DNA of 64,000 bases from Plumapathes pennacea (taxonomy: Eukaryota > Cnidaria > Anthozoa > Antipatharia > Myriopathidae): contig OZ038472.1 in assembly GCA_964036295.1 (NCBI GenBank), positions 558,001-622,000 of the forward strand. Direction: 5' to 3'. Positions 2,282-61,259 of this stretch are shown here, piece after piece (the stretch's first letter is position 1; the number at the start of each line of letters is the position of its first letter). The notes beneath the pieces were generated by a model. That model worked only from the letters and a program-made list of their open reading frames with translations. It was not told where the DNA came from and searched no databases. The position numbers and the translations under genes are program-made.

Positions 2282-3423
<1,142 letters not shown>

Positions 3424-13509: not shown

Positions 13510-16500
13510 ATGGGGAATTCAGACTCCCAGCCAAAAGCAAGAAGGGACAAAAAACAATCAAGCCCTCCAGAATGCTCCAAAAGAGATGGGGAGAGGTTAG
13601 GAACAATTAGTGCCAAAGCAACATATTCAGATACCCCACAGTTTCCTTCAGGAAGCAAAGTTGCTGGCTCCGAAACTTCAAGTGTTTCGAACAACACTGA
13701 TGAACACCGAATTTCAATGTCACAAACTAACACGAGTGAACTTCCTGTGTCGATTGGTTGTCTGAAGCTAGCACCCGAAGTTCCTTTGTTGGTTGTCTGT
13801 GAAAGCGAAACACCAGATTCGACTTCAAACACGTCACATGGCATAAACAGTAATGAAGTTCTGTATAATGGTGCTTTGAGTGAGGAAGACGACAGCCCCA
13901 GCTATCCGACACATCCACCGGTTGAAGAAGACAAACCTTCCTTTTCGTGTTATCCCAAGAGCAGCTCGACTGGTAAGGCACCAGCTTCATCGGTTGCTGA
14001 CGTCACCAGAGATGAGACCCCCCCAATTTGGGGCCTGGGTTTGCAACATCCCGACGAATGGAAAACTAAAGCACGAGCAGACCCTGTGCTTGGCGAATTT
14101 GATACCAAAGTATATTCATATCTGAAGACGCCCGGTCCAGCAATTGCTTCCGATTGCACCAGTGACACGCCGTATACTGCGGATGTGCTGCAGTCTCTAC
14201 AGGAAGAAGTGTACGCGGTGTCCACACTGAAGCATGAGGAGTCCATAGAACAACAACAACAACAAAAACAACAACAACAAGTAAAGAAGCCAATAGAATC
14301 AAAGCAACAAGGGGCAGAGGACGAGCAGCTACAAAATCTTCTACTGTTACACCAACAACAAACGAAAGAGCTACAGCTAGATGCTACAAATGTGAAAAGT
14401 TGCGACGTTCTAGAGTGCTCACAACCGGAAGTTGATCATATTGAGCATCGAGTTTTGGCTGACCTTATAAAGGGTGGTTCAACGCTTACGTCACGAGCAC
14501 AGAGATTTGATGTCACAGAACCGGACGTTGACGTAGATTGTAAGACCAAGTGGCGACTCCAGTCTGTCATTAACGACGACTTGTGGGAATCTGACGGCTC
14601 CTGCGGGACGGAGTTTATCGTGGTCTCGTCTTCACTTGAGAGTGACCCTCCTGTCGCGCGAGGCGTGGAACATTCACGTGATCACTCTGATGTCACCAAA
14701 TCTTCGAAAATGGGGTCACGTCCGGAAAAGTGTGAGTTGACGTTCTCCAACGTTACTTCGACACTATTAGAGAAAAACGGCGTCAGTGGTCGTCAAGAGA
14801 TTGCGCAGTTACCCCTTACAACGCATGACTACTCTGATGATGATACTATAAAGGATTCCAATAATTCTAACGAAGTAAATAAGTTGCTAATGGCTACCAA
14901 GGTTTTATCCGAAAGTGCCAACAGCGTTACCTCTAGCAGGTTTTACACCACATCAGGTGATAAGAGGGAAGATGTAAGCTGGTCGACGTCTGGTGAACTC
15001 AAGAAAAGTGGAGACTGCAATGATGAGACTTTGCAAACAAAAATGCGCCAGCAAGGAACATTAGACGATTCTACGACCTCCGTTATGACGTCATGCGCAG
15101 CACAAGATGTCATGTTCCGGACCGAACGAGAACATACAGAGCGTCTGAGCAGAAGAGTGGGTAGTAGTCGTGACGTCTGCACACAGCGACAAGTTCATGA
15201 AGACTGGTCATTACAAGTCAGCGGTGCGTCCGGTGGTGAACCGCTGTTAGCCGAAAGTGCAGGTTCGTGTCCTTCTGATGACGAAATTTGTAGTCATGAA
15301 GAATTGACGCAGGAAGAATCTAGTAACGATATGCGCCAAAGAAGTCCCGATGCTGCTCAAGACGATGAACATTTGGATTTGGCGACTGCATCTGAATCTG
15401 AAGTAGATAGCTGTGAGGACAACACGCTCCTTGAGACCTGGAAAGACAGTGAGATACCGTGCCCCTCTGCCATGAGACAAGATCAATTCACGAATGACCT
15501 GTCACGATCTACAGAAGGTCAAAACTCTCTGTCTATTGAAAATATAACGTCAAACGCTGGAGCAAGCAATTATTCCAACGGTACTCCTATTTGTGATTCT
15601 GATGGTGAAAACTACAGAGAAGACATTAAACATTTCAACGAAAAATTGCACGCGCAAATGGACAACGTTTGTGATGGATCAAAGGAACACCCGGTGAAAA
15701 AGACAACTGCACCTGGCGACGGAAAGTCAGCTAAAAACAAGTGTGCCACAAATAAGAGAAGTAAAACAAAACAGACGGGGGAGGTTTTTGCTGGTAAATC
15801 ACAAGAAAAAGGGACGAAGCAGAGGACAAAAACCAGAACACCGAGCACAAGTGACGATAACGCGACAGCTAAATTTCCAGGTCCCGGCAAATGTCATGGA
15901 CAAGGTGAAGGCAAACTGAAGAAACAGTCAAATAACCAAAAGTCTAGTTTCAAGAAGAATCAAAAGCCGAAGGAAACCAAGGAACATTCGGAACATTTCA
16001 GGAAAAAGTCGGGACCTGAATCCCGGGCGACGCCACAGTTTGGACAATCCTCACAGAACCTTTCACCCGTGGGGAAGTTCACTAAAAGAAAGGGCAGCGG
16101 CGGCTGTACAACTGACACACTTAGTGTGGGCGCAGAACGAATGAAGACCAAAAGCACGACTGCTCAAGCTGGCTCCAGTTTTCCGTCGAGAGAACTCCTG
16201 AACCTTGAATCAATTCGGGAAAACCTCATAGAGAGGTTGAAAAGACAGGGAACAGAAGTTCTAGCAAAGCACAAGAAGAAGATAAAAGATATTAATGCAA
16301 GTCTAACCAAACACAAGCCAAAGAAAAAGGGGAAGAAGACGACATACGTAAGGCTGGATAATTTTGAAAAGAGAGAACAAGAAATGCGCGTCCTGGAACA
16401 AAGGAAGGGAGAACTGGAAGATCAAAAACGAGAATTCCAGAAATTCCAGAATACCTTTTTTACCAAAATATTAAATAACAGGGGATGTTTGTCGAAAACG

Positions 16501-19500
16501 TACGTGAAGGATCAACGAAACGCCTTCGAAGGAGAGTGTAGTCGTTTGGAAAATGCACTTCCAATCTACGGCCGTAAGACAGTCATCGTGGAGCAGGTGC
16601 GACAGAATCAGGTGTCCATAGTTCTTGGTGAAACTGGATCCGGCAAAAGCACACAGATGGTACAGTATTTGTATGAAGCTGGATTTGCTGACAATGGCAT
16701 TATTGCGTGCACACAGCCCAGAAAAGTCGCTGCCACCAGCCTCTGTACGCATGTGGATAAAGAAATGGGCGGAAGACGGCTGGTTGGTTGTCGCGTAGGC
16801 GCACAGAGCCCCAAAAATACCCTCAACGCCAAAATTCTGTACACGACTGACCATGCGCTTCTTAACGAATGTCTGAAAGACTGGACCCTCATGAAGTACT
16901 CTTGCATCATTATCGACGAGGCTCACGAGCGCAGCATTTACACTGACCTCCTTCTTGGTATGATCAAGACAGCCCTGCAGACGCGCCCAGACCTTCGTGT
17001 TGTCATCACCTCCGCCACTATTGAGCCAGATCTCTTTGTGACTTATTTCAATGGATGTCCTGTGTTGAGGGTGTCTGGCCGGATGTTCCCCGTCGACGTC
17101 GTTTATGAACAGAGCAAGAAGGACTATGAACTGAACGCTGTACAAACGGCTCACAAAATTCACACTGAAGAGGAAGAAGGAGATGTGCTGGTGTTTTTGA
17201 CGTCGCCAGCAGAAGTAGAGAAAGCCTGCGAGAAGCTGCAGAAGATGCATCGCGGTGAAGATCTAGAATGTCTACCACTGCACGGGAAACTACGCCAAGA
17301 AGACCAATTGAAAGTGTTCCAATCCTACCCAGGAAAGCGCAAAGTCATCTTCGCAACCAATTGCGCGGAAACGTCTGTTACCGTACCGGGTGTCAAATAC
17401 GTTGTCGACAGTGGCAAAGTCAAAGAGATGAAGTTCGATGTGAAGCGGAATATGAGTTCCCTTGTCGTGACCGACATCAATCAGAGCTCGGCTGAGCAGA
17501 GAAAGGGACGCGCAGGGCGAACCCAGGCTGGCAAATGCTATCGCCTTTACAGCCAGGAGGAGTATGAGGCCATGAATAAGCGATCCGCACCCGAGATTCT
17601 CCGGATTCACCTGGGACAAGCGATACTGAAGCTCATGGAGCTGGGAGTCCAGGACCCTGCGGATTTTGACTTTGTTGAATCGCCACCGAAAGACTCCCTT
17701 TGCAGTGCCATGGAAACCCTTAAGACCCTTGGTGCTATAAGGGACGGCAGGTTAACGCAGCTTGGGCGAAATATGGCCAGGTTGCCTTTAGAACCTCGCC
17801 TTGCAAGGCTTGTATTCCAAGGGATCGATCAGAATGTTGGAGCCGAAGCACTGATCCTGGCTGCAGTAGCTACAGTTAACGGAAGTATTTTCTTCAGGAT
17901 GGGAAGTGACGAGGAGAAGAAACTTGCTGACACGCGAAAAGTGCAGTTCTGCCAGGAGGAAGGAGACCTGCTCACGCTTCTTGCAGCGTATCGAGACTGG
18001 AGTGCGATAAAGGGGACCAATAGGAACAAGTGGTGCTATGCAAACAGTCTGAACGCCAAGGCACTACGCATTGCCGAAGACACCGTGAAAGAGCTGAAAC
18101 TAGTGCTGAAGCATGAACTGAAGGTTGACGTGAAGGATACGCCAGCAGATCAAGATACCGCATCCTGCGATAAAACACTGCGTAAGATCCTACTGTCATG
18201 CTACATCAGCAACTTGTGCATGTTCAGTGGTCACGAGAGAGCTGGATATCTAGCGGTGACACTTGGTCAGTGTGTCGTGCTACACCCCTCGTCGGCCCTC
18301 AAGGTCCTGAACTTTAACCCTCGTTTCGCTGTGTATGGACAACTGCTGAAGACGTCGCGAGAGTTCCTGCTGAATGTGACGCCCGTAGAAGAGGAATGGT
18401 TGGACGAAAGCATCCAGGAAAGTGGTCTCGACATGGATTTGGAGAAACTGAAAGCGTCCGTTCTTAAACCAGAGACGTATACTTGCAGCAGTGAGTTGAT
18501 GAACGCCTCTCTGTTGTGTCGTGGTTTCACAACGCTCAAGCAGATCGAACAGGAATTAACCCAATTCACCAATTTTGACATGCCAGTATTTATTGAAGTG
18601 GACAAGAAGTCTGGTTCAGTAACCTCATTTGCACAAGCTTCTTGCAGCGTAGAAGTACGAACGAAGGTGGAGAAACGTTTGGAGGATGGCAGGAAGGAAT
18701 TGAGGCGCGAAGTAAAAGAAATGCCGGTCGTAGAGGGATGTAGCACTGTACGGGCACTAATGGGGAGTGGGGGGATGGTGCAGCGGCTTCTAATGCCAAA
18801 CACATACCGTTCAGTGGTCAGCAAGAACGTACCGCTGGAGATTCCACTTCTACAGGTACTGGACGAATTGAAGGCACATGGAACTGTAGTGAGTCACAGG
18901 ATATTTGATGACGACAGAAAGGTAATAGTGACCTATAACAGTCCTGAAGTTGTCACATCAGTACTTGGGCTCAAAGAAAGATTTCCATTCAACGTGGACG
19001 TCTATCAAACTGACCAGAACAGTAACTGTGGCCTGAAAGTGAAACTCACCTGGTGTCGCCGTCCAGCTAAGGGAACTGCTCAGATTAGCTTTCAATACCA
19101 TGAGGACGACATCGGAGAAGTACTTTACAGTCTACGTATCCACCCTCCAATCAATAAGTACGGAGCTGCAGTGAAATTCAAGCAAGACAAATTCCACCCA
19201 GGGCGACTTTTCTTGTGGAATCTTGGCACAGACGTAACTGAACGCGACATAGAAAAGGCGTTTGAGTCCGCTTGCTCAGATGTAAAAGTCATAGTGTTCC
19301 TGCACAGGCAGAAGGAGTTCGAAACGACTCAAAGGGAGCTCAATGACCTGAAGACCACTCTAGAGAGTGCCGTCAGTGATTATGTGCGGATGGGGGAGTT
19401 TCAGGTCCAAGTAAAGCCTCCTAGAACCGCCAAAGATTTCATGTACGTCGCTTACCTTCACTTCCAAGACGTAGAGTATGGAAGAAAAGCCCTCGAAGAT

Positions 19501-20871
19501 CTGGAGAGGATGAGGCTATCAACTCAACTCACAGGAAAAGTCGCCATGACGCCCCAGCTTCAATGCACCATGAGATGCCCAAAGGATATCTACGCCTTAA
19601 TCAAAGACAGCATAGAAGAAATCAAAACAGAATGCCTCGATCGCTGTCATGAGAGTTGTGGGAATAGCCGGGCATTGTACGTGGACATTAAACAATGCAA
19701 TGGAAAACAAGTGGCCTTGATGGTAAATAGTGAATGCATAAAGCATTATGTTCATGTGACGGGTGCCATTCGAGATGAACTGGACGGTGATGTGATAGAC
19801 TGCAGTGGTGATGGCGGCTTGGACGTCCTCTTAACTCCCGGAGGCAGAGAAGCGTTGCAAAAGGTTCAGGAGAAGACGGGTGCTTTGATTTACTCCGATC
19901 ACAAGAGCAAATCCATCAAGATTTATGGTAAGATCGAAAACAAAGAAGCAGCAAAGCGGGACATCAATTCCGTCCTGGAAGAGCTCTTCATCACTGACAG
20001 CCGATTGTGGGATATCCACCTGCGCGGTTCAAACCGGCCACGTGGTCTTCTCAAAGCTGTCGTTTCCCGCCACGGAGTAGATCTCCTTGGTCTGCGAAAG
20101 TTGGACGGAGTGCAAAGTGTGTCCCTTGATCTCCGCAGCCACGTTTTGAGGATTAACGGCTCTAAAGATGGATACGATGCTGTACAGAAGTCCGTAGAAG
20201 AGTGTGCCGGGTCTTTGCCAATGGAACCATCCAAATCTGATGCAGAGATGCCCGATGAAACAGAATGCGCCGTTTGCTTATGCCCCGTAGAAGGCGACGT
20301 GTATCGTTTGGCGTGTTGTGGCCACGCGTACTGCTTGGAATGCGCTCAAAATCAAGTAAAGACAAAGAAATTCCCTCTGCAATGCACCGGAGATGGATGC
20401 GAAGAATCATTTGTTTGGAAAGACATTCAGAATATCGTTCAAGACAAGAAGGAAATGCGGAGTCTCGTGGAGGCCTCGATTGACCACTACGTTACTACCA
20501 ACCCAAGCAATGTCAAACATTGCTTAACGCCAGATTGTGGAGGGGTTTATGCGGTGTCTGTCGATGGAAAGCCATTCATGTGCTACGGATGTCAAGTAGA
20601 GATATGCACTACGTGCCACGTCCGGTACCACCAAGGACTCTCTTGCGAGGCCTATCAGTCCGAAAAGAAGGATGCTGGAAACGTAGAGAAATATCTCAAG
20701 GAGCATCAAGACACAAAACGCTGCCCCAATTGTCGAGTGCTGATAGAGAAGACAGAAGGATGTAATCACATGACATGCCGTATGTGCCGGGCGCACATGT
20801 GTTGGCGATGTCTTAAGGTGTTCCTTACTGGAGGAGAAGTTTATGCTCATCAAAGCAAATGCCGATTCTGA
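13510..20871 (+). CDS. Giant DEAH-box helicase fused to an RBR E3 ubiquitin ligase (DEAH12-like), intronless
   Basis: One uninterrupted frame of 2453 residues starts at ATACCATGGGG, a good context. Residues 1-~870 are low-complexity and acidic, with a Gln-rich tract near 246-260; about 700-870 is very basic; a coiled coil lies near 930-985. The helicase core follows: GETGSGKST (about 1039), IIIDEAHERS (about 1135), TSATIEPDLF (about 1168), CAETSVTVPGV and QRKGRAGRT (about 1328), then the winged-helix and OB-like region of DEAH RNA helicases. Residues about 1800-2230 look like RRM/KH-type modules. The C-terminus is RING1 (CAVCLCPVEGDVYRLACCGH), IBR (CLTPDCGG, CYGCQVEICTTC) and RING2 (CPNCRVLIEKTEGCNHMTC); the Cys in EGCNHM matches the RBR catalytic Cys. 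Plant DEAH11/12 proteins share this fusion. Residues 2-6 (GNSDS) fit an N-myristoylation signal. An RNA-sensing ubiquitin ligase role is inference. Confidence 0.9.
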   Translation: MGNSDSQPKARRDKKQSSPPECSKRDGERLGTISAKATYSDTPQFPSGSKVAGSETSSVSNNTDEHRISMSQTNTSELPVSIGCLKLAPEVPLLVVCESETPDSTSNTSHGINSNEVLYNGALSEEDDSPSYPTHPPVEEDKPSFSCYPKSSSTGKAPASSVADVTRDETPPIWGLGLQHPDEWKTKARADPVLGEFDTKVYSYLKTPGPAIASDCTSDTPYTADVLQSLQEEVYAVSTLKHEESIEQQQQQKQQQQVKKPIESKQQGAEDEQLQNLLLLHQQQTKELQLDATNVKSCDVLECSQPEVDHIEHRVLADLIKGGSTLTSRAQRFDVTEPDVDVDCKTKWRLQSVINDDLWESDGSCGTEFIVVSSSLESDPPVARGVEHSRDHSDVTKSSKMGSRPEKCELTFSNVTSTLLEKNGVSGRQEIAQLPLTTHDYSDDDTIKDSNNSNEVNKLLMATKVLSESANSVTSSRFYTTSGDKREDVSWSTSGELKKSGDCNDETLQTKMRQQGTLDDSTTSVMTSCAAQDVMFRTEREHTERLSRRVGSSRDVCTQRQVHEDWSLQVSGASGGEPLLAESAGSCPSDDEICSHEELTQEESSNDMRQRSPDAAQDDEHLDLATASESEVDSCEDNTLLETWKDSEIPCPSAMRQDQFTNDLSRSTEGQNSLSIENITSNAGASNYSNGTPICDSDGENYREDIKHFNEKLHAQMDNVCDGSKEHPVKKTTAPGDGKSAKNKCATNKRSKTKQTGEVFAGKSQEKGTKQRTKTRTPSTSDDNATAKFPGPGKCHGQGEGKLKKQSNNQKSSFKKNQKPKETKEHSEHFRKKSGPESRATPQFGQSSQNLSPVGKFTKRKGSGGCTTDTLSVGAERMKTKSTTAQAGSSFPSRELLNLESIRENLIERLKRQGTEVLAKHKKKIKDINASLTKHKPKKKGKKTTYVRLDNFEKREQEMRVLEQRKGELEDQKREFQKFQNTFFTKILNNRGCLSKTYVKDQRNAFEGECSRLENALPIYGRKTVIVEQVRQNQVSIVLGETGSGKSTQMVQYLYEAGFADNGIIACTQPRKVAATSLCTHVDKEMGGRRLVGCRVGAQSPKNTLNAKILYTTDHALLNECLKDWTLMKYSCIIIDEAHERSIYTDLLLGMIKTALQTRPDLRVVITSATIEPDLFVTYFNGCPVLRVSGRMFPVDVVYEQSKKDYELNAVQTAHKIHTEEEEGDVLVFLTSPAEVEKACEKLQKMHRGEDLECLPLHGKLRQEDQLKVFQSYPGKRKVIFATNCAETSVTVPGVKYVVDSGKVKEMKFDVKRNMSSLVVTDINQSSAEQRKGRAGRTQAGKCYRLYSQEEYEAMNKRSAPEILRIHLGQAILKLMELGVQDPADFDFVESPPKDSLCSAMETLKTLGAIRDGRLTQLGRNMARLPLEPRLARLVFQGIDQNVGAEALILAAVATVNGSIFFRMGSDEEKKLADTRKVQFCQEEGDLLTLLAAYRDWSAIKGTNRNKWCYANSLNAKALRIAEDTVKELKLVLKHELKVDVKDTPADQDTASCDKTLRKILLSCYISNLCMFSGHERAGYLAVTLGQCVVLHPSSALKVLNFNPRFAVYGQLLKTSREFLLNVTPVEEEWLDESIQESGLDMDLEKLKASVLKPETYTCSSELMNASLLCRGFTTLKQIEQELTQFTNFDMPVFIEVDKKSGSVTSFAQASCSVEVRTKVEKRLEDGRKELRREVKEMPVVEGCSTVRALMGSGGMVQRLLMPNTYRSVVSKNVPLEIPLLQVLDELKAHGTVVSHRIFDDDRKVIVTYNSPEVVTSVLGLKERFPFNVDVYQTDQNSNCGLKVKLTWCRRPAKGTAQISFQYHEDDIGEVLYSLRIHPPINKYGAAVKFKQDKFHPGRLFLWNLGTDVTERDIEKAFESACSDVKVIVFLHRQKEFETTQRELNDLKTTLESAVSDYVRMGEFQVQVKPPRTAKDFMYVAYLHFQDVEYGRKALEDLERMRLSTQLTGKVAMTPQLQCTMRCPKDIYALIKDSIEEIKTECLDRCHESCGNSRALYVDIKQCNGKQVALMVNSECIKHYVHVTGAIRDELDGDVIDCSGDGGLDVLLTPGGREALQKVQEKTGALIYSDHKSKSIKIYGKIENKEAAKRDINSVLEELFITDSRLWDIHLRGSNRPRGLLKAVVSRHGVDLLGLRKLDGVQSVSLDLRSHVLRINGSKDGYDAVQKSVEECAGSLPMEPSKSDAEMPDETECAVCLCPVEGDVYRLACCGHAYCLECAQNQVKTKKFPLQCTGDGCEESFVWKDIQNIVQDKKEMRSLVEASIDHYVTTNPSNVKHCLTPDCGGVYAVSVDGKPFMCYGCQVEICTTCHVRYHQGLSCEAYQSEKKDAGNVEKYLKEHQDTKRCPNCRVLIEKTEGCNHMTCRMCRAHMCWRCLKVFLTGGEVYAHQSKCRF

Positions 20872-21967: not shown

Positions 21968-24900
21968 TCAGTTAGCGGTGTCGCCTTCACTCAAGTCGTG
22001 AGACTCATCCAGGAGAAGGTTGTTCTCCTCTAAGATCAGGTCAATGTCGTCACCTGAAAAAACAAGTAATGCAGAATTAGCGTCTAAGTATGATTAAAGC
22101 CGCAAAAATGGTTCTCGAGTTTTGTTGGCCAAAAGCTACAGAAAAAAAGTTGATTGTTTACTTAGTGAGTTTATTCAAGCTTTGAATTATTAAAAACGAA
22201 AACAAGATGATGTAATGAAAATTGACAGTTCCTACCGTTGAGGTATGTGGCTAGAACGTCCAGCACATCTTGTCGCTTCATAGCCACTAGTGCCAAAATC
22301 AACTCCTCTACCGTAATGTCTGGCTCACTCTTCTGTAAACTCTTAAACAGCAGCTTTGTGCTGCTCCTCTCATCCTCTGTGGGCTCAAAGAGTTGACACT
22401 TTTCTGGTGGCACCTTCAGTTCCTTCGCTAGTTCTCTCCAGTTCGGCTCGTCGTCGTTTAACAGGTCTGTGATTTGATCCATCAGTTCTGCGTCATCCAA
22501 GATGTCGCGCACGTGCTCATCGTCTGAGGGGGAAAGATTAAGGAGCGAGTTGAATTATGGGAGGATTTATGGAATCTCTTTTTGACGTCAAGAGTCAACC
22601 GACTGCCCGCCAAACGTCAACATTGTTGGCGGAAAAGGTGAAATACACTCTAAAGCGAAAGAGTACAAATGCAAAAATAAAAGGGGAACAGTATAAAGAC
22701 GAAAAGAGAGACAGTGAAGGAAATCAAAAGTAAAAACAACAACAACAAAGCGAAGAGACGACAAGGAAAAGAAATTACCCGGGATTCCAGCGGAGCCCAA
22801 CACGGAGATGACGTCTTTCCTTAAAATTCTCTCCAGCACTTCTTTCAGATCTGCAATTGTCAACTCGGGGGCAAATATGGGCAGGTATTTCAGCAGCAAC
22901 AGAGCGGAGTTGTATCCTTGGTTGGAACCGAAATTTTTGTACACCCGACGAGGGATGTCCAGCTGTTGAGCGAGGTGCTTCCAGATGACGGGGGAGCCTC
23001 GGTCGAGCTTCAGAGCCAGTTTTCCCAGTAGGTCCCGGTCCTCTTGCTCCACTAGACTGGCCACAACACTTTCGTCACTTATCAAGTTACCTGTTTGGCA
23101 TGAATCAACAAGAGAATGGTCACATGATGGTACCTTCCTATGAATTAACAACATGGTCACATGATGGTACTTTTCTACGAATTAACAATATGGTTACATC
23201 GTGGTACCTTTCTACGAATTAACAACAGTATCATCACATGAAGGTACCTCTATCCCCATTAGCTTTCCATATGAAGTACATTTTGAAGCTATAACAAGGA
23301 AGGACAAAAGGAAGGTGCAGAGCGAATGATTTGCCTTCCCTTGTCTTTAAGTGAACACCTTTCCCAGAAAGATATAAACAGTGACTTACGCATTCTAAAC
23401 TTATCCATAATTTGGACTACGTCTGGTCTTCCGATCTCCACCAGCGCTTCTCTAATTTCTTTCATGGTCATGTCGGGCTTCGTCGAAGAAAGAAACACGA
23501 ACAAGTCTTCGGTGGGACTGCTGACGGAATACACGTCATAATGTTCGTACGCCTCGGGTGGTATGGCCAAGAGATCTGCCAGGTCTCGCCAGCTCGGAAG
23601 CAAACTGTACTGGTAATCTGTGTCAAGGCATTTTGCCAACTCGTCCAGGATACGCGAGTTATCGGTGATAGTTTCCGATAGCAGTGAGTCTAGAGATTTT
23701 GATAGGCAATGTAAAGTAATATTGGTAAACGATGAAGAATGCCGTGTGCTTCAGTTATAGATGCACGCGTTGGAGAACAGCATAAATCCAAAAACAACAG
23801 TGCGAGAAAAAGGGGAACACTATGCGACTATTGTTAGTAGGAGAATGACGCGAGACACACCTCGTCCCATTTCCTCACTTTCAACGGCCGCATCGTGCGT
23901 GCGCGTCGTCATTTAAAATTGACTGGTGCGAGCAAAAGGGTCGGACTATTCATAAACGCATGGACCACTAGCATCTTAATATCTAAAATGAAATTTTTGT
24001 AATCACAGTCCATGTCTTACCTGCATCGATTCTTTGTACAACACTATCACTTAAATCGTCGACCTCCTCCTCCACTTGCTCCTGATTCATCAGCGGAGCC
24101 TGCTTTGTCCTTTCTCTAGGGTCGTAGTCATCATCGCCGTCTACTTCTACATGTATCTCTTCGTCTTTCAGCATTTCTTCGACTTCTCCTTTGTGTTTCT
24201 CTACGTGGTTATGCACTTCCTCTTTTTGTTGGCTTTGTACTTTCTCAGTTTCTCCCTCTTCTTTTTCTTCCTCTCCTTGAATGTGCCCCTTCACGAGTTC
24301 TTCTTCCTCTCCTGTGTCATTCTCTGGTCGATCTTGCACCTGCACACATTGACCCCCTTCGTCTTTCTCTTCTTGTTCGTGTCCTTCAATTTTCTGATCC
24401 ATTTCATTATCTTTCTCTCCTGATTGTTCCTCAGCCTCTCTACTAATTGCTACCGCCGCGTCTTCCCCATTTGTCGTCTCTGCAGTCATTTCTTCTTCTT
24501 TGTCCTGTCCTTGCTCCTGTCGCTGTATCTCCTCACTTACTTTACATTCCCTTTTGTCCACTTCCTCGCCCTTTCCTTCTTTCTCTTTCACTTCTTTCTC
24601 TGTTGTTTCCGTCACTACAGTTTCTCCATCTTCACCTTCACCAGTTGCTGTCGTTACTTCATCTTCTTCTTTTTGATCTTGTTCTGGGGCAGACTCATCT
24701 TCTCCGTCTTTCTCTTCTTTATCCGTCACTACAGTTTCCCCTTCTTGACCAGTTGCTGTCGTTACTTCATCTTCTTTTTTATCTTGTTCTGGGGCAGACT
24801 CTTCTTCCCGTTCTGCCTCTTCATTATCCGTCACTGCAGTTTCCCCATCTTCACCAGTTTCTGTTCTTACTATATCTTCTTCTTGATCTTGTTTTGGCGT

Positions 24901-27900
24901 GGGCCCCTCTTCACTTTCACGCCCTTCATTATCTTGCACCACAGTTGATGGATATATTTCACTCTGTTCCAACCGCTCTTTCCCTTCCGTCGTCTCTACT
25001 GATTTCATTTCCCTGTCACCTTCCTTCTCTTCTTGAAATTTCTCGTTGTCCTCTTCTCCGTCATTTTCTGTGTCTCCTTGTTCTTCAACCTTCTCTGCCA
25101 CTTTTCCCACGTTTAGCTCCTGTTCTCCAGATTCCATATGAGCCAACCTTTCGCTTGGTTCCTCGTGGCTGCTGTCAGGGGACCTCACGCCTTCCTCTGA
25201 ATAAATAAGGACAGGTATAGATGAGATTACACACTACAAAGTAGCAAGCTAATGTCGTATTTACTGCATTGACTGAAAAAGCACAGGGGGATTGTAAAGA
25301 TAATGTACAACAAAATTTAGTTTCTACTTAATAACATGAACCATGCACTGTACCATCAGAAGTAGTTGACAAGATCTCTTCCATGTCTTTGTCCAAGTTG
25401 AGGGTATCTGAAGGAGTTTCAACAATTTGGGTGTCTGGAATACAAGTTGTATCTGCCTTGTCATCAACAACTTTATCCATAACAGCTCCTACACCTGGCA
25501 CATTGGTGACTTCTTCTCCCTGTTCAGTCCCAGAGTTCACAGAAACTTGTTTTTCATTACTCAAGTTCTCATGAACTGTTTTACCTGATTCTAAGTCTCT
25601 TGACACTTCTGTATCACTGTCTGCTGAAGTTTGGACCAGTGCTGTTGCTGACTCATTATCACCTTGTTTACCAATGTTCAATTTAGCAGCCTGACTGGAG
25701 TGTAATTCATCTGATAAAGTCCTTTGTATTGAACTTGGCTGCAGCTCCTCACTGGCTGCAGTTGAGCCAAAAAGTTCCTCAGATGCACCATTCTGTTCAT
25801 CTGCTTTGCTTTCACCAACTAACCCAGGTTCTGCTTGGGCACCTTCTGCATTAATCAAAGTAGTGTCCTCTGACACACTCATGCCTTCATTAACAAAACT
25901 CACTGAAGTCTGGTCTTCTCTTGTATTTTCCAACAACTCACAGGCAGCATTCTCTTCATTTCTTAAACTGTCTTCTGCTCCTCCAGCTGACGTCACAATC
26001 TCATCAAGTCTTGTTTCGTCAACTGCAACAGTTTGGTCCTCACATTTTGGACTCTGATCATCCAAACTATTGCAAGAATTTTGTTCAGAGGAACTACCAG
26101 CAATATCTTCGCTTTTAGTATGCACCTCCACAACTATCTTGTCGCGGTCTTCGACAACGACTGAAGATTGCAAAACAGGCACCCCAACTAACACAGTGTT
26201 GTCATCCTGCTGCATCAAAGAGGCAGTATCATCATTCAGATCAATGGTGCTGGGAGCCGCCTCTGCAGAAGTTGTTCCTGTCGATGTATCAAGTGGCATC
26301 TGATCCTCGACAGCAGCAATTTTTTCACTAAGGTTCCCTGCCATAACAGCCTTCTCGCAGCTGTCTTCTGTGTGCTTCATATTTTTCCCTGCTTCTTCGT
26401 TCAGGGCCTCATCAAGACTATCCTTCTCACTGTCCTTATCAGGATTATCAGCTTGTTCTGCACCGGCCCAAGCTGTAGATGCATTGTTGTTTGATAATCC
26501 TTGATCTGTAGCTTGTTCACCATTTGTTGTGGTAACTATGGAAACAATAAATTACACTTATGCATGGGAAAATACTGCATTATTAATGCTAGACTAATAC
26601 TGAACAATTTGTTTGTTATTTTAGGTCAGCTACTGCTTGTAACATCAGGTAATATAGCTTTTTGCAGGCTTTATCAAATTACAATCTCAGCAAAAAAACC
26701 CTGGTTTACAAAAGACCATTTTCAGATTGGAAGCCTGTTTTCTCAACTGATTAATCTACTACTGTTTTGCAATAGCTTTGTCATACATACACACACACAG
26801 ACATAACAATATATATTTATCATTGATAAGGTTGTTGTATATATTCTTGACTTGAATTTAAAAAACTGGTAAAAACACAAATTATTTTAAATTACATGTA
26901 TTATTTTAATTTATACGTGTGCAGTTGTCTCGTTTTCTCGTAGCATTTCGTACTTGCCGTCACCATACAAAATTTGAATTTGAATCTAATCAAAATAGAC
27001 GTGCTATTGTGTGCAAAACATGCAAATTTACACAACAAGGAAAAGAGTCGCCGCGGTCAATATGTAAACACTAGGAAAGCGAAAATTAAAATGGATTATA
27101 AGTCCAGTAAAAACTAGTATTAGCCATCCCAATGGAACAAACGACAACATAAAATTATACGTTTTCGATCGAATGTTACAATGTGCATGCACGGTAGCAC
27201 GCCAGACGCGTATAAATAGAGTCGGAATCTCGGAAATACATTGTCATTCAAACAAGTCCCACGTGTGTCTAAATCGCTTTCATATTACTGCTTTACCAAC
27301 TTCCAATTAAGTCCTAAAAAGACACAATCACTGGGCCAGTTGGTGAGTTGTTAATGTGGTACTTAGTGTATTGTTTGGTTAATTAAGATACATCCTTGGG
27401 GGTGGTGTATATGATCACAGCATAAAGATCACGTTTAATGTTACAGATGCAGAATTCCATGCTGTTGAAAATCTAGAACAAGAGCATTTCCAGTAGGGTA
27501 GAAATCCGAAACGAAGGGGAAAAACATTATGAGAAAATCTTGAGCGTTTACCTTCTGCGGCCGACAAACGAATCTCTACAGAAAAGAAGTATGGCTCAAT
27601 CCTTTCCTCCGCGAACTCCAGAAGTCCTGCAAACTCTCCTCTCTTAGTATAAATCACAGCTCCTAAAGGCATCTCCTCATTAGGAAACCCCCTTATGGTC
27701 TTGATCTCAGTGTTTCCAAAATCTTGAAGAACGAATTGGCGCGTTTCCGCCAGAAATAAAAACTTGTACGTTCGTGTTGAGAACTCTTGGCTTTCTTCCT
27801 CCCGTATAACATGGCAGTACAATCCTTCGCTGAGCTCAGCGTTCAGCTTTGCAGTGTCAAAGCACACTAAAGGCCGAGTCGTTTGCAAGCTACTTTTCTT

Positions 27901-28296
27901 TGCCATTCGTCTCAGAAAGCCTCTCTTGTCGAGCTTCTCGACGGAAATGATTGTCATCGATTGCTCTTTTGCCAAACCGTCGTCTTTAACATCGGTGTCA
28001 TCCCAAACAGCACGTCCGGGAATATCCATACAAGCGTCTGCAGCAAGGTTAAGATCAAACGTTTCCAAGCCTTTCTTATCTTTGAGGAGAAAATCAGCGA
28101 CAAATGCTTTTCCTGGTGTGAGCTCGTCGCGATGAAGTACATTGCTGGAAGTCACCAAGATATATGGACATTTCCAGCCACGCTCGGACGAAAACCACTC
28201 ACATTTAACAACACAGCCGCTTCCTCGAGTTAACGAGCCTTCGTTTTTCGGCAAGATCTGCCTAATTCTGCAGACAGCAAACTCAACTTTGTTCAT
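21968..28296 (-). CDS. Trypsin-like pseudoprotease, acidic linker and three Death-domain-like modules (seven exons)
   Basis: The exons are 28296-27552, 26535-25354, 25196-24021, 23689-23390, 23090-22779, 22523-22236 and 22053-21968. All six introns are phase 1 and the sum is 1362 residues. Residues 1-248 look like a trypsin/HtrA-type barrel (GSGCVVKCEW, then ILVTSSNVL). The position of the usual catalytic His (ILTxxHVL) is Asn, so this is probably a pseudoprotease. Two exons encode about 790 acidic, disordered residues with internal repeats of the type APEQD...EVTTATG...GETVVTD. Exons 4, 5 and 6 each encode one Death-like helical bundle with a W..LA..L core: LPSWRDLADLLAIPPEAYEH, PVIWKHLAQQLDIPRRVYKN and EPNWRELAKELKVPPEKCQL, each followed by a P(D/E)(M/L/I)T...(R/K)(P/K/Q)DV helix pair. 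A short acidic tail ends the protein. It is probably a cytoplasmic adaptor in apoptosis or immunity. The start is the first ATG after an acceptor-like CAG at 28330; a 5' UTR exon may lie upstream. Confidence 0.75.
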
Positions 28297-28529: not shown

Positions 28530-28800
28530 CCGGGGTGGGAGGGGGGGGGGGGGGGGGGGGGAGGGGAGGGGGGGAAGGGGGAGGGGTGTACTCCCATATA
28601 TGAGCCATATAGGTGTGTGCCGCCGCCCCAAAGGGTATCATTTTCAGCATTTTAGTCTGAAATAGGGTATTGATTTTAGCATTTTAGTCTGAAATAGGGT
28701 TGGAGATTTTAATATTTGGTCTGAAATAGGGTCGAAAATTGTGCATTTTGGTCTGAAATAGGGTCAAAAATTGCATATTTTGAGGAGTATCCCCCCGGGG
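28530..28800. repeat. Dispersed repeat with G-run and tandem TAGTCTGAAATAGGGT units
   Basis: A near-pure G tract (about 28540-28585) is followed by CCCATATATGAGCCATATAGG and by four successive TCTGAAATAGGGT units spaced 30-45 bases apart. CCCGGGG-like sequences bound it on both sides (28530 and 28795). A second copy lies at 56180-56470. Confidence 0.75.
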
Positions 28801-49593: not shown

Positions 49594-50148
49594 TTGAACT
49601 GGGAGTTCCACCTTGACCTCCAGTGGTGGGTTCAATTTCTCTCTTCGGGGAACGGCGTCAGCTTCTGGCTCTATCCAGGCTTGACCCCGGATTTAGATCT
49701 GGAGGTCACTTCTGACACAGCAAGTTCCCTTGGCTTTGGTGCCTTTTTCCGCGGAGAATGGTTCTCTGGTCCATGGTTGCCCATCCAATGGCACGAGTTT
49801 ATTGCCTACAAGGAACTCTTCCCGGTGGTTATTGCAGCGCATCTGTGGGGCCCAAGGTGGGCTAAGAGGAACATTTTGTTCCATTCTGACAACACAGCTG
49901 TCGTGTCGGTCCTCAACTCTAGGACTTCCAAGGTCCCCCAGCTGATGCATCTAATGTGTAGTCTGCTTATGGCCTCAGCCTGTTTCAACTTCTTCACGGC
50001 CCGACACATTCCTGGCATGCGGAACTCAATTGCTGATGCCCTTTCTCGTTTTAATTGGCTGGAATTCCGGCATTTAGCTCCTGAGGCACACCCGTTTCCA
50101 GTTCCAATTCTGCATCAGCTTCTCAAGGATCTGACTTCTCCCAACTAG
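49594..50148 (+). pseudogene. DIRS RNase H domain
   Basis: An open frame of 184 residues contains LEVTSDTASSLGFGAFFRGE, WHEFIAYKELFPVVIAAHLW, ILFHSDNTAVVSVLN and HIPGMRNSIADALSR, the usual acidic residues and the final IADALSR of retroelement RNase H. Confidence 0.85.
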
Positions 50149-60164: not shown

Positions 60165-61259
60165 TCAGCGAGACCTCTTAAACACTCGCTTCACTTCGTT
60201 TCTGAAGTTTGCGTTTCCAAATGCATAAATTATAGGGTTTAGGACGGAAGTCGTAAAACTAAAGCACACGAGTAGAGGTCTTGCAGGATACTCCCCGAAA
60301 TATAGATCAGTTTCACAGTAAGATTGAAGAGTGTCCATCACAGTTAATGGTCCCCAACTGATAAGGGTAGTTATGAAGACTAAAATAAGCATGCGGGTTG
60401 TCTTGTACCTAGACTTTGCAACGGCACTGTTTATAGCACCCATACGCGCTCTTGTCCAGAGAAACCTCAGAATCTTCCCATAGCACAGAGCCATTACGAG
60501 GATCGGAATCAGAAAAGCAAACAGAAGAAACACAGTAACGGACATTCTACCGGCCCATAAGTCTGGGTTCCCCGTAATGCAGTCGTCGGTCTGCAAGTCA
60601 AATACAATTTTCTTTCTGTTTTGCTTCTGATTTGTTTCAGAGGTGTCAGAGAAGTTAGTAGCCACTTGGTACGTCCGGACGAATCGTTTATTCGTGGCAG
60701 TGACGAGAAACGCGGAGCAAACGACGAAAGCCAACGCCCAAGTAAGTAGAATTGTTTTCGCCTTTGGCCATTTGAACCGGAGACTCCGCAAAGGATAGAG
60801 AATGTGAAGGTAGCGATCAACTGCTATTAAAGCCAGCAGGAAAAATATTACAGCAGCGAAGAGCCCCTGACAGAAAATCATGAGCTTACAGTGAAGGGGA
60901 GAAAGGATCTTCTTACTGAGTCCATCAGAGATACCACCTGCAATCCCAAGGGCTCTGAAAATAAGGTCGGTGACGGCCAGCTGGAATATAAAGCAGTTAG
61001 CCATGGTCGACTTGAATCTTCTTCTTCCGTTTATCATGACGAAGCAGACGAGAAGGTTAGAAACGATTCCGAGAGCAATCAAAGTCCTGCCAATAATATA
61101 TAGGACCTTGATGTACACGACAAAGCGAGTGTGGTCACTCTGCATTTCAAGCTGAAGGCGGTGCTCTTCCTCCGAAGTTAGATTCATCGTTGCTCTGTAC
61201 TGGCGGGCGGCGTCTAACTTTTGTCCTTGCCGAAATTGACCTCTTGGTGACTGACTCAA
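60165..61259 (-). CDS. Class A (rhodopsin-like) G-protein-coupled receptor, intronless
   Basis: A single exon encodes 364 residues. The extracellular N-terminus has an N-glycosylation site (NLT near residue 26). Seven hydrophobic helices are seen: TM1 IALGIVSNLLVCFVMI; TM2 CFIFQLAVTDLIFRALGIAG (the LAVTD block, as LAxxD); TM3 with Cys before it and AVDRYLHILYPL (DRY) after it; TM4 KTILLTWALAFVVCSAFLV; a long second loop with DDC (disulphide partner); TM5 VTVFLLFAFLIPILVMALCY; TM6 MLILVFITTLISWGPLTVMD, with SWGP in place of CWxP; TM7 ending NPIIYAFGNANFR (NPxxY). The pattern suits an amine or peptide receptor of the kind strongly expanded in cnidarians; the ligand cannot be predicted. A second in-frame Met at residue 25 is an alternative start. 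Confidence 0.92.
   Translation of the reverse strand: MSQSPRGQFRQGQKLDAARQYRATMNLTSEEEHRLQLEMQSDHTRFVVYIKVLYIIGRTLIALGIVSNLLVCFVMINGRRRFKSTMANCFIFQLAVTDLIFRALGIAGGISDGLSKKILSPLHCKLMIFCQGLFAAVIFFLLALIAVDRYLHILYPLRSLRFKWPKAKTILLTWALAFVVCSAFLVTATNKRFVRTYQVATNFSDTSETNQKQNRKKIVFDLQTDDCITGNPDLWAGRMSVTVFLLFAFLIPILVMALCYGKILRFLWTRARMGAINSAVAKSRYKTTRMLILVFITTLISWGPLTVMDTLQSYCETDLYFGEYPARPLLVCFSFTTSVLNPIIYAFGNANFRNEVKRVFKRSR

Follow-up and report, generated by a model that had tools for sequence, protein, structure and literature searches.

Animal Death-domain pathways are best known for their coupling to caspases and kinases. Combinations of a trypsin-like fold with Death-type domains have also been described: bacterial trypsin-like peptidases are fused to the Death-like domains bDLD1 and bDLD3 (Kaur et al. 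2021, PMC8195603), and a figure legend in Babonis et al. 2019 (PMC6767649) lists a trypsin-Death protein of Nematostella vectensis that groups with trypsin-PDZ proteins. Inactive trypsins, in turn, occupy effector positions of bacterial MoxR-vWA systems, and a role in binding peptides or in dominant-negative regulation has been proposed for them (Kaur et al. 2020, PMC7159879). Here we analyse a locus of the antipatharian Plumapathes pennacea that is predicted to join a catalytically dead trypsin-like barrel, through a long acidic linker, to three Death-type domains. It lies on the minus strand, from 28296 to 21968, of a 64,000-nucleotide stretch of contig OZ038472.1 (positions 558,001 to 622,000; assembly GCA_964036295.1), which we refer to as the window and whose numbering we use throughout.

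The original prediction, made from the letters of the window, had placed the barrel, about 790 acidic residues and three Death-like modules in one protein. A complete gene model matches its coordinates to the base: the ATG starts at 28296, the stop codon ends at 21968, and the seven predicted exons encode a product of 1,362 residues. The splice sites of the model were chosen by eye; all six introns are of the GT-AG type and all six are in phase 1. Exon 1 (27552–28296) encodes the barrel (residues 1–248), exons 2 and 3 the two halves of the linker, exons 4–6 the Death-type domains D1–D3, and exon 7 (21968–22053) a short C-terminal tail with the stop. The shuffle test of open frames covered exons 1–6, all of which are open beyond chance: 0, 0, 0, 0, 2 and 2 of 500 dinucleotide-preserving shuffles, respectively, stay open. 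Because hydropathy reveals neither a signal-peptide-like nor a membrane segment (the highest 19-residue value is 1.4), the predicted protein should be intracellular. A poly-G tract (28532–28586) and a 32-bp minisatellite of about four copies (28640–28782) are found just upstream of the predicted gene.

The trypsin-like nature of residues 1–248 emerges from predicted structure. While AlphaFold2 gave no usable model from the single sequence (predicted local distance difference test, pLDDT, 34), an alignment of six family sequences from the same genome (alignment A2) yielded a model with a pLDDT of 65.9 and a predicted template modelling score of 0.58. When this model was compared with the PDB by Foldseek, 48 of the 50 rows shown were or contained chymotrypsin-like proteases of the PA clan (top match at prob 0.99), and with VIA-align PA-clan proteases appeared in all 50 rows shown; the match scores were modest in both cases. 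We therefore assign the domain, with moderate confidence and on the strength of the model, to the chymotrypsin-like double-barrel fold of the PA clan (trypsin-like, S1), as had been claimed. Sequence searches were silent on this point. No Pfam family was listed at E ≤ 10 for the barrel of any of the six members, all of which thus fall below the cut-offs of Trypsin_2 (PF13365) and Trypsin (PF00089); a search of NCBIfam returned nothing relevant (one domain at E 0.2), and a sequence search of the PDB retrieved only weak, unrelated chains. Scans of viral contigs, one using the barrel and one using the Death profile, detected no relatives.

The barrel had been singled out for an Asn at its catalytic His site. 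We aligned A2 to two different protease sets, E. coli DegPQS and ten Trypsin_2 domains from the same genome (alignment A4). In both registers, which were read by eye, the catalytic His is replaced by Asn52 (codon 28141–28143) and the catalytic Ser by Leu211 (codon 27664–27666). Each register is statistically weak by itself: hhalign returned E 0.021 and a probability of about 2% for DegPQS, and E 0.046 and a probability of about 1% for the Trypsin_2 domains, neither being significant. Column shuffles reached the score in 1 of 200 cases for DegPQS and in 1 of 150 for the Trypsin_2 domains, and the reversed alignment scored below the real one (15.8 vs 21.4). The catalytic Asp is probably lost as well, with its placement unsure. 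The position falls on Ser113 (codon 27958–27960) in the favoured Trypsin_2 register and on Ala86, beside Asp87, in that of DegPQS; neither residue is Asp, and some relatives have an Asp next to the Ala86 column. Among the five relatives, the residues are Gln, Gln, Glu, Gln and Gln at the His site, Val, Glu, His, Leu and Val at the Ser site, and Gly, Gly, a gap, Gly and Glu in the Ser113 column. With the catalytic His and Ser missing at all 12 aligned sites of the six family members, Asn52 is neither a sequencing error nor a recent lesion. An active trypsin-like peptidase requires both residues, and the barrel has neither; the loss of catalysis is thus better founded than it had been on Asn52 alone.

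The three Death-like modules were likewise borne out, each in its own manner. D3 (exon 6, 22236–22523) matches Pfam Death (PF00531) at E 1.3e-8, with 35.3 bits against a cut-off of 22.6, and scores 15.4 bits with bDLD3. D1 (exon 4, 23390–23689) passes the cut-off of bDLD3 (PF20690; E 1.1e-6, 28.9 bits vs 27.1) and stays under that of Death (E 0.0067, 17.0 bits vs 22.6). D2 (exon 5, 22779–23090), the weakest by Pfam, is under both cut-offs (Death E 0.02, 15.5 bits; bDLD3 E 0.023, 15.1 bits) and is recognised by its homology to the other two: pairwise blastp E-values among D1–D3 range from about 1e-12 to 4e-7, with D2 matching D1 and D3 at about 2–4e-7. All three share a Trp and an RxDV motif, both among the Death-domain features given in Kaur et al. 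(PMC8195603). Searched against the PDB, a profile of the three domains matches the Death domains of NRADD (5.1e-5), ankyrin-2 and p75NTR; it also matches HipB antitoxins at about 0.003, which we take as chance helical matches. Judged by sequence, D1, D2 and D3 are three different Death-type domains, each with an exon of its own. A 37-bp tandem repeat in three copies (23116–23227) lies in the intron that separates D1 from D2.

The locus is predicted to be a single gene, as originally proposed, but the genome contains at least five loci of this kind, the window's included. We searched the whole assembly (290 Mb, 24 contigs); all counts are lower bounds, since 150 of the 257 Death candidates were scored, and the search with the window's barrel scored four candidates and missed two relatives that were found later. 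A search for the GFP family, meant as a marker of anthozoans, gave no match at E ≤ 0.001, which does not demonstrate that the family is absent. Five barrel exons lie on one contig, C11 (the window's own and those at 6918k, 10129k, 10130k and 14881k), and each of the five has three Death exons on its own strand, about 2.4–4.7 kb downstream. The loci at 10129k and 10130k are arranged head to head, with about 150 bp separating the presumed start codons. The barrels of the relatives are 22–29% identical to that of the window and each of their barrel exons is open, as would be consistent with a conserved fold whose surface varies. Death triplets are more widespread, occurring at ten or more loci, nine of them on C11; an eleventh locus, on C8, has two firm Death exons and one weak. 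No barrel was found upstream of four triplets (5425k, 5457k, 15712k and 15725k) within the 5.6–6.8 kb sampled, a range that includes a gap of about 1 kb at 15712k.

In a tree of 32 Death domains, the sequences group by their position in the triplet: three label changes are needed where the minimum is two, while shuffled labels required 15.7 on average and none of 200 shuffles was as low as three. The tree has long branches and its individual groupings are uncertain; D1 alone forms a single group (in 86% of bootstrap trees, compared with 26% for D2 and 14% for D3), so that clustering by position is firm for D1 and weaker for D2 and D3. This clustering indicates that the three domains were probably duplicated together, and the ordered D1-D2-D3 array is probably old and copied whole. 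A further arrangement, at C1:38654k–38662k, comprises on one strand a barrel-like exon, OTU-like pieces (PF02338, E 0.019, under the cut-off) around a reverse-transcriptase-like open reading frame (ORF), and a Death triplet. The order of this putative gene model is a hint that other cargo can be accommodated between the barrel and the Death domains.

Taken together, these observations lead us to favour, tentatively, a locus encoding an intracellular, non-enzymatic sensor or adaptor scaffold, in which the dead barrel would bind a ligand and the Death triplet would nucleate signalling complexes. The barrel would be the recognition end, its old substrate groove or its loops contacting a protein of an invader or a protease of the cell. 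Until then the long charged tether would hold the barrel apart from the Death array; ligand binding would cluster several copies of the protein, and the clustered arrays could nucleate a Death-domain complex into which further proteins, for example FADD-, MyD88- or IRAK-like ones, are drawn. The strongly divergent barrels of the paralogues may provide different specificities, and the triplet a common output. A proteolysis-independent sensor that engages Death-domain partners is what the original prediction had suggested; the layout that it described is upheld, as is the absence of catalysis, and such a recruiter would still be the most likely role.

A possible, though clearly less probable, alternative is that the protein acts as a brake in the manner of c-FLIP, occupying shared Death complexes or pairing with active barrels and thereby regulating active protease-Death relatives present in the same cell. 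Potential partners are abundant: the genome holds 48 Trypsin_2 matches, 45 of them over the cut-off. We aligned ten of the twelve loci that were fetched, leaving out L071 and L074 as near copies of L069 and L070, and all ten domains keep the catalytic His, Asp and Ser. Five of the 48 matches are located on the same strand within 6 kb of a listed Death exon, compared with 0.25 expected, and none of 1000 rotations gave as high a count (the test used the 150 listed Death exons and took the largest listed coordinate as the contig end). At C2:7463390 an over-cut-off Death exon comes after the Trypsin_2 domain of C2:7462k. Given this excess, active (putative) trypsin-Death genes may exist alongside the dead ones. 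However, proximity of Trypsin_2 and Death exons is not proof of fusion, and none of the remaining 43 matches has a listed Death exon within that distance. Moreover, the dead barrels did not arise from the active ones by recent copying: A2 and A4 align at E 0.046, whereas DegPQS and A4 align at 4.1e-8.

The linker invites another explanation, which we consider unlikely: that it is a bait in a protease tripwire, and that its cleavage by an invader's protease releases the three Death domains, which could then form oligomers. Sensing of this kind is known from human NLRP1 and CARD8, which respond to viral proteases. The linker measures 786 residues (about 790 had been claimed), is 29% Asp plus Glu, carries a net charge of -162 and is probably disordered. 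Its first half is encoded by exon 2 (25354–26535, residues 249–642; 22% Asp plus Glu, net charge -63); the second (exon 3, 24021–25196, residues 643–1034; net charge -99) contains a tandem repeat of 105 bp, or 35 codons, in 2.8 copies (24592–24897). A long, acidic, repeat-bearing segment that joins a recognition-type fold to a signalling array is what a tripwire would call for, but a disordered linker is by itself a common feature, and an equally long and acidic linker exon was not seen in the stretches fetched for the relatives, where the linkers have no gene model. TRAF-binding and caspase-site motifs were inspected by eye in the linker and dropped as unconvincing.

It is more doubtful still that the model wrongly joins two neighbours, one gene for the barrel and linker and another for the three Death domains. 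Such a join could arise where splice sites are chosen by eye and the model is predicted from genomic sequence, and the triplets with no barrel in the sampled upstream range illustrate that a triple-Death locus can stand by itself. Yet order, strand and similar spacing are kept in all five barrel loci of C11, and intron phase is consistent across the barrel-Death junction: the introns there are in phase 1, and the barrel exon can end at a phase-1 donor in five of the six members (by eye). A phase-1 acceptor-like site is present at 32 and a donor-like site at 25 of 35 Death exons, counts that come without a chance control. Finally, it is very improbable that the gene is a functionless relic in decay: the catalytic residues are gone and identities within the family are low, but exons 1–6 of the window's gene are open beyond chance and relatives at 22–29% identity keep open barrel exons.

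Returning to a sensor or adaptor scaffold as the reading we prefer, a broader version of it is speculative and rather unlikely as a whole. The family could represent a hitherto unrecognised animal immune-sensor class in which diversified dead trypsin barrels are receptors or protease baits, linkers are tripwire-like and the three-Death output is conserved, and whose members would pair with active trypsin-Death proteases encoded in the same genome, much as c-FLIP does with caspase-8, in a trypsin-based cell-death pathway.

Elsewhere in the window, the plus strand carries a single open frame of 2,453 residues (13510–20871) with DEAH helicase, KH_DEAH11 and IBR (RBR ubiquitin ligase type) domains, an ankyrin-repeat ORF (2335–3423) and an RVT_3 (reverse transcriptase-like) ORF (49594–50148); a rhodopsin-family G protein-coupled receptor ORF is on the minus strand (60165–61259).

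How does the predicted protein compare with known systems? Like c-FLIP, it joins a dead protease to tandem death-fold domains; c-FLIP differs in its caspase fold, its death effector domains, the reversed order of its parts and the lack of a long acidic linker. MamO of magnetotactic bacteria, to our knowledge, has no Death domain. It is a repurposed trypsin-like fold (PMC4794232) that was among the VIA-align matches of the barrel, and it is set apart by its function, the promotion of magnetite biomineralisation via metal binding (PMC4794232). The inactive trypsins of MoxR-vWA systems share the loss of catalysis, but they are fused to a vWA component in bacteria (PMC7159879), while the barrel of the window is predicted to be attached to a Death triplet. 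The bacterial trypsin-bDLD proteins combine a trypsin fold with a Death-like domain, and D1 passes the bDLD3 cut-off; they differ in belonging to NTPase-based conflict systems, where they are described as peptidase effectors (PMC8195603). In the Nematostella protein, too, an animal trypsin-type domain is joined to Death. The Nematostella tryptome was gathered with Trypsin and Trypsin_2 hidden Markov models (PMC6767649), neither of which matches the window's barrel, and the description of that protein in the accessible part of the paper mentions no three Death domains, no acidic linker and no family.

The original prediction knew of no named family with this layout. For the exact layout this agrees with the literature searched: no pseudoprotease with a triple-Death array was among the matches listed in open-licence PubMed Central titles and abstract starts. 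The combination itself has precedents (PMC6767649, PMC8195603). The dead-trypsin, three-Death family and the Trypsin_2 exons beside Death exons would suggest that wiring like that of the bacterial trypsin-Death proteins (Kaur et al.) persists, or has re-evolved, in animals, and the family provides concrete proteins for asking whether death signalling has a trypsin-based branch. While the pairing of trypsin with Death is already known, the dead barrel, the acidic linker and the heritable, ordered Death triplet together form a new variation on it, absent from the matches listed.
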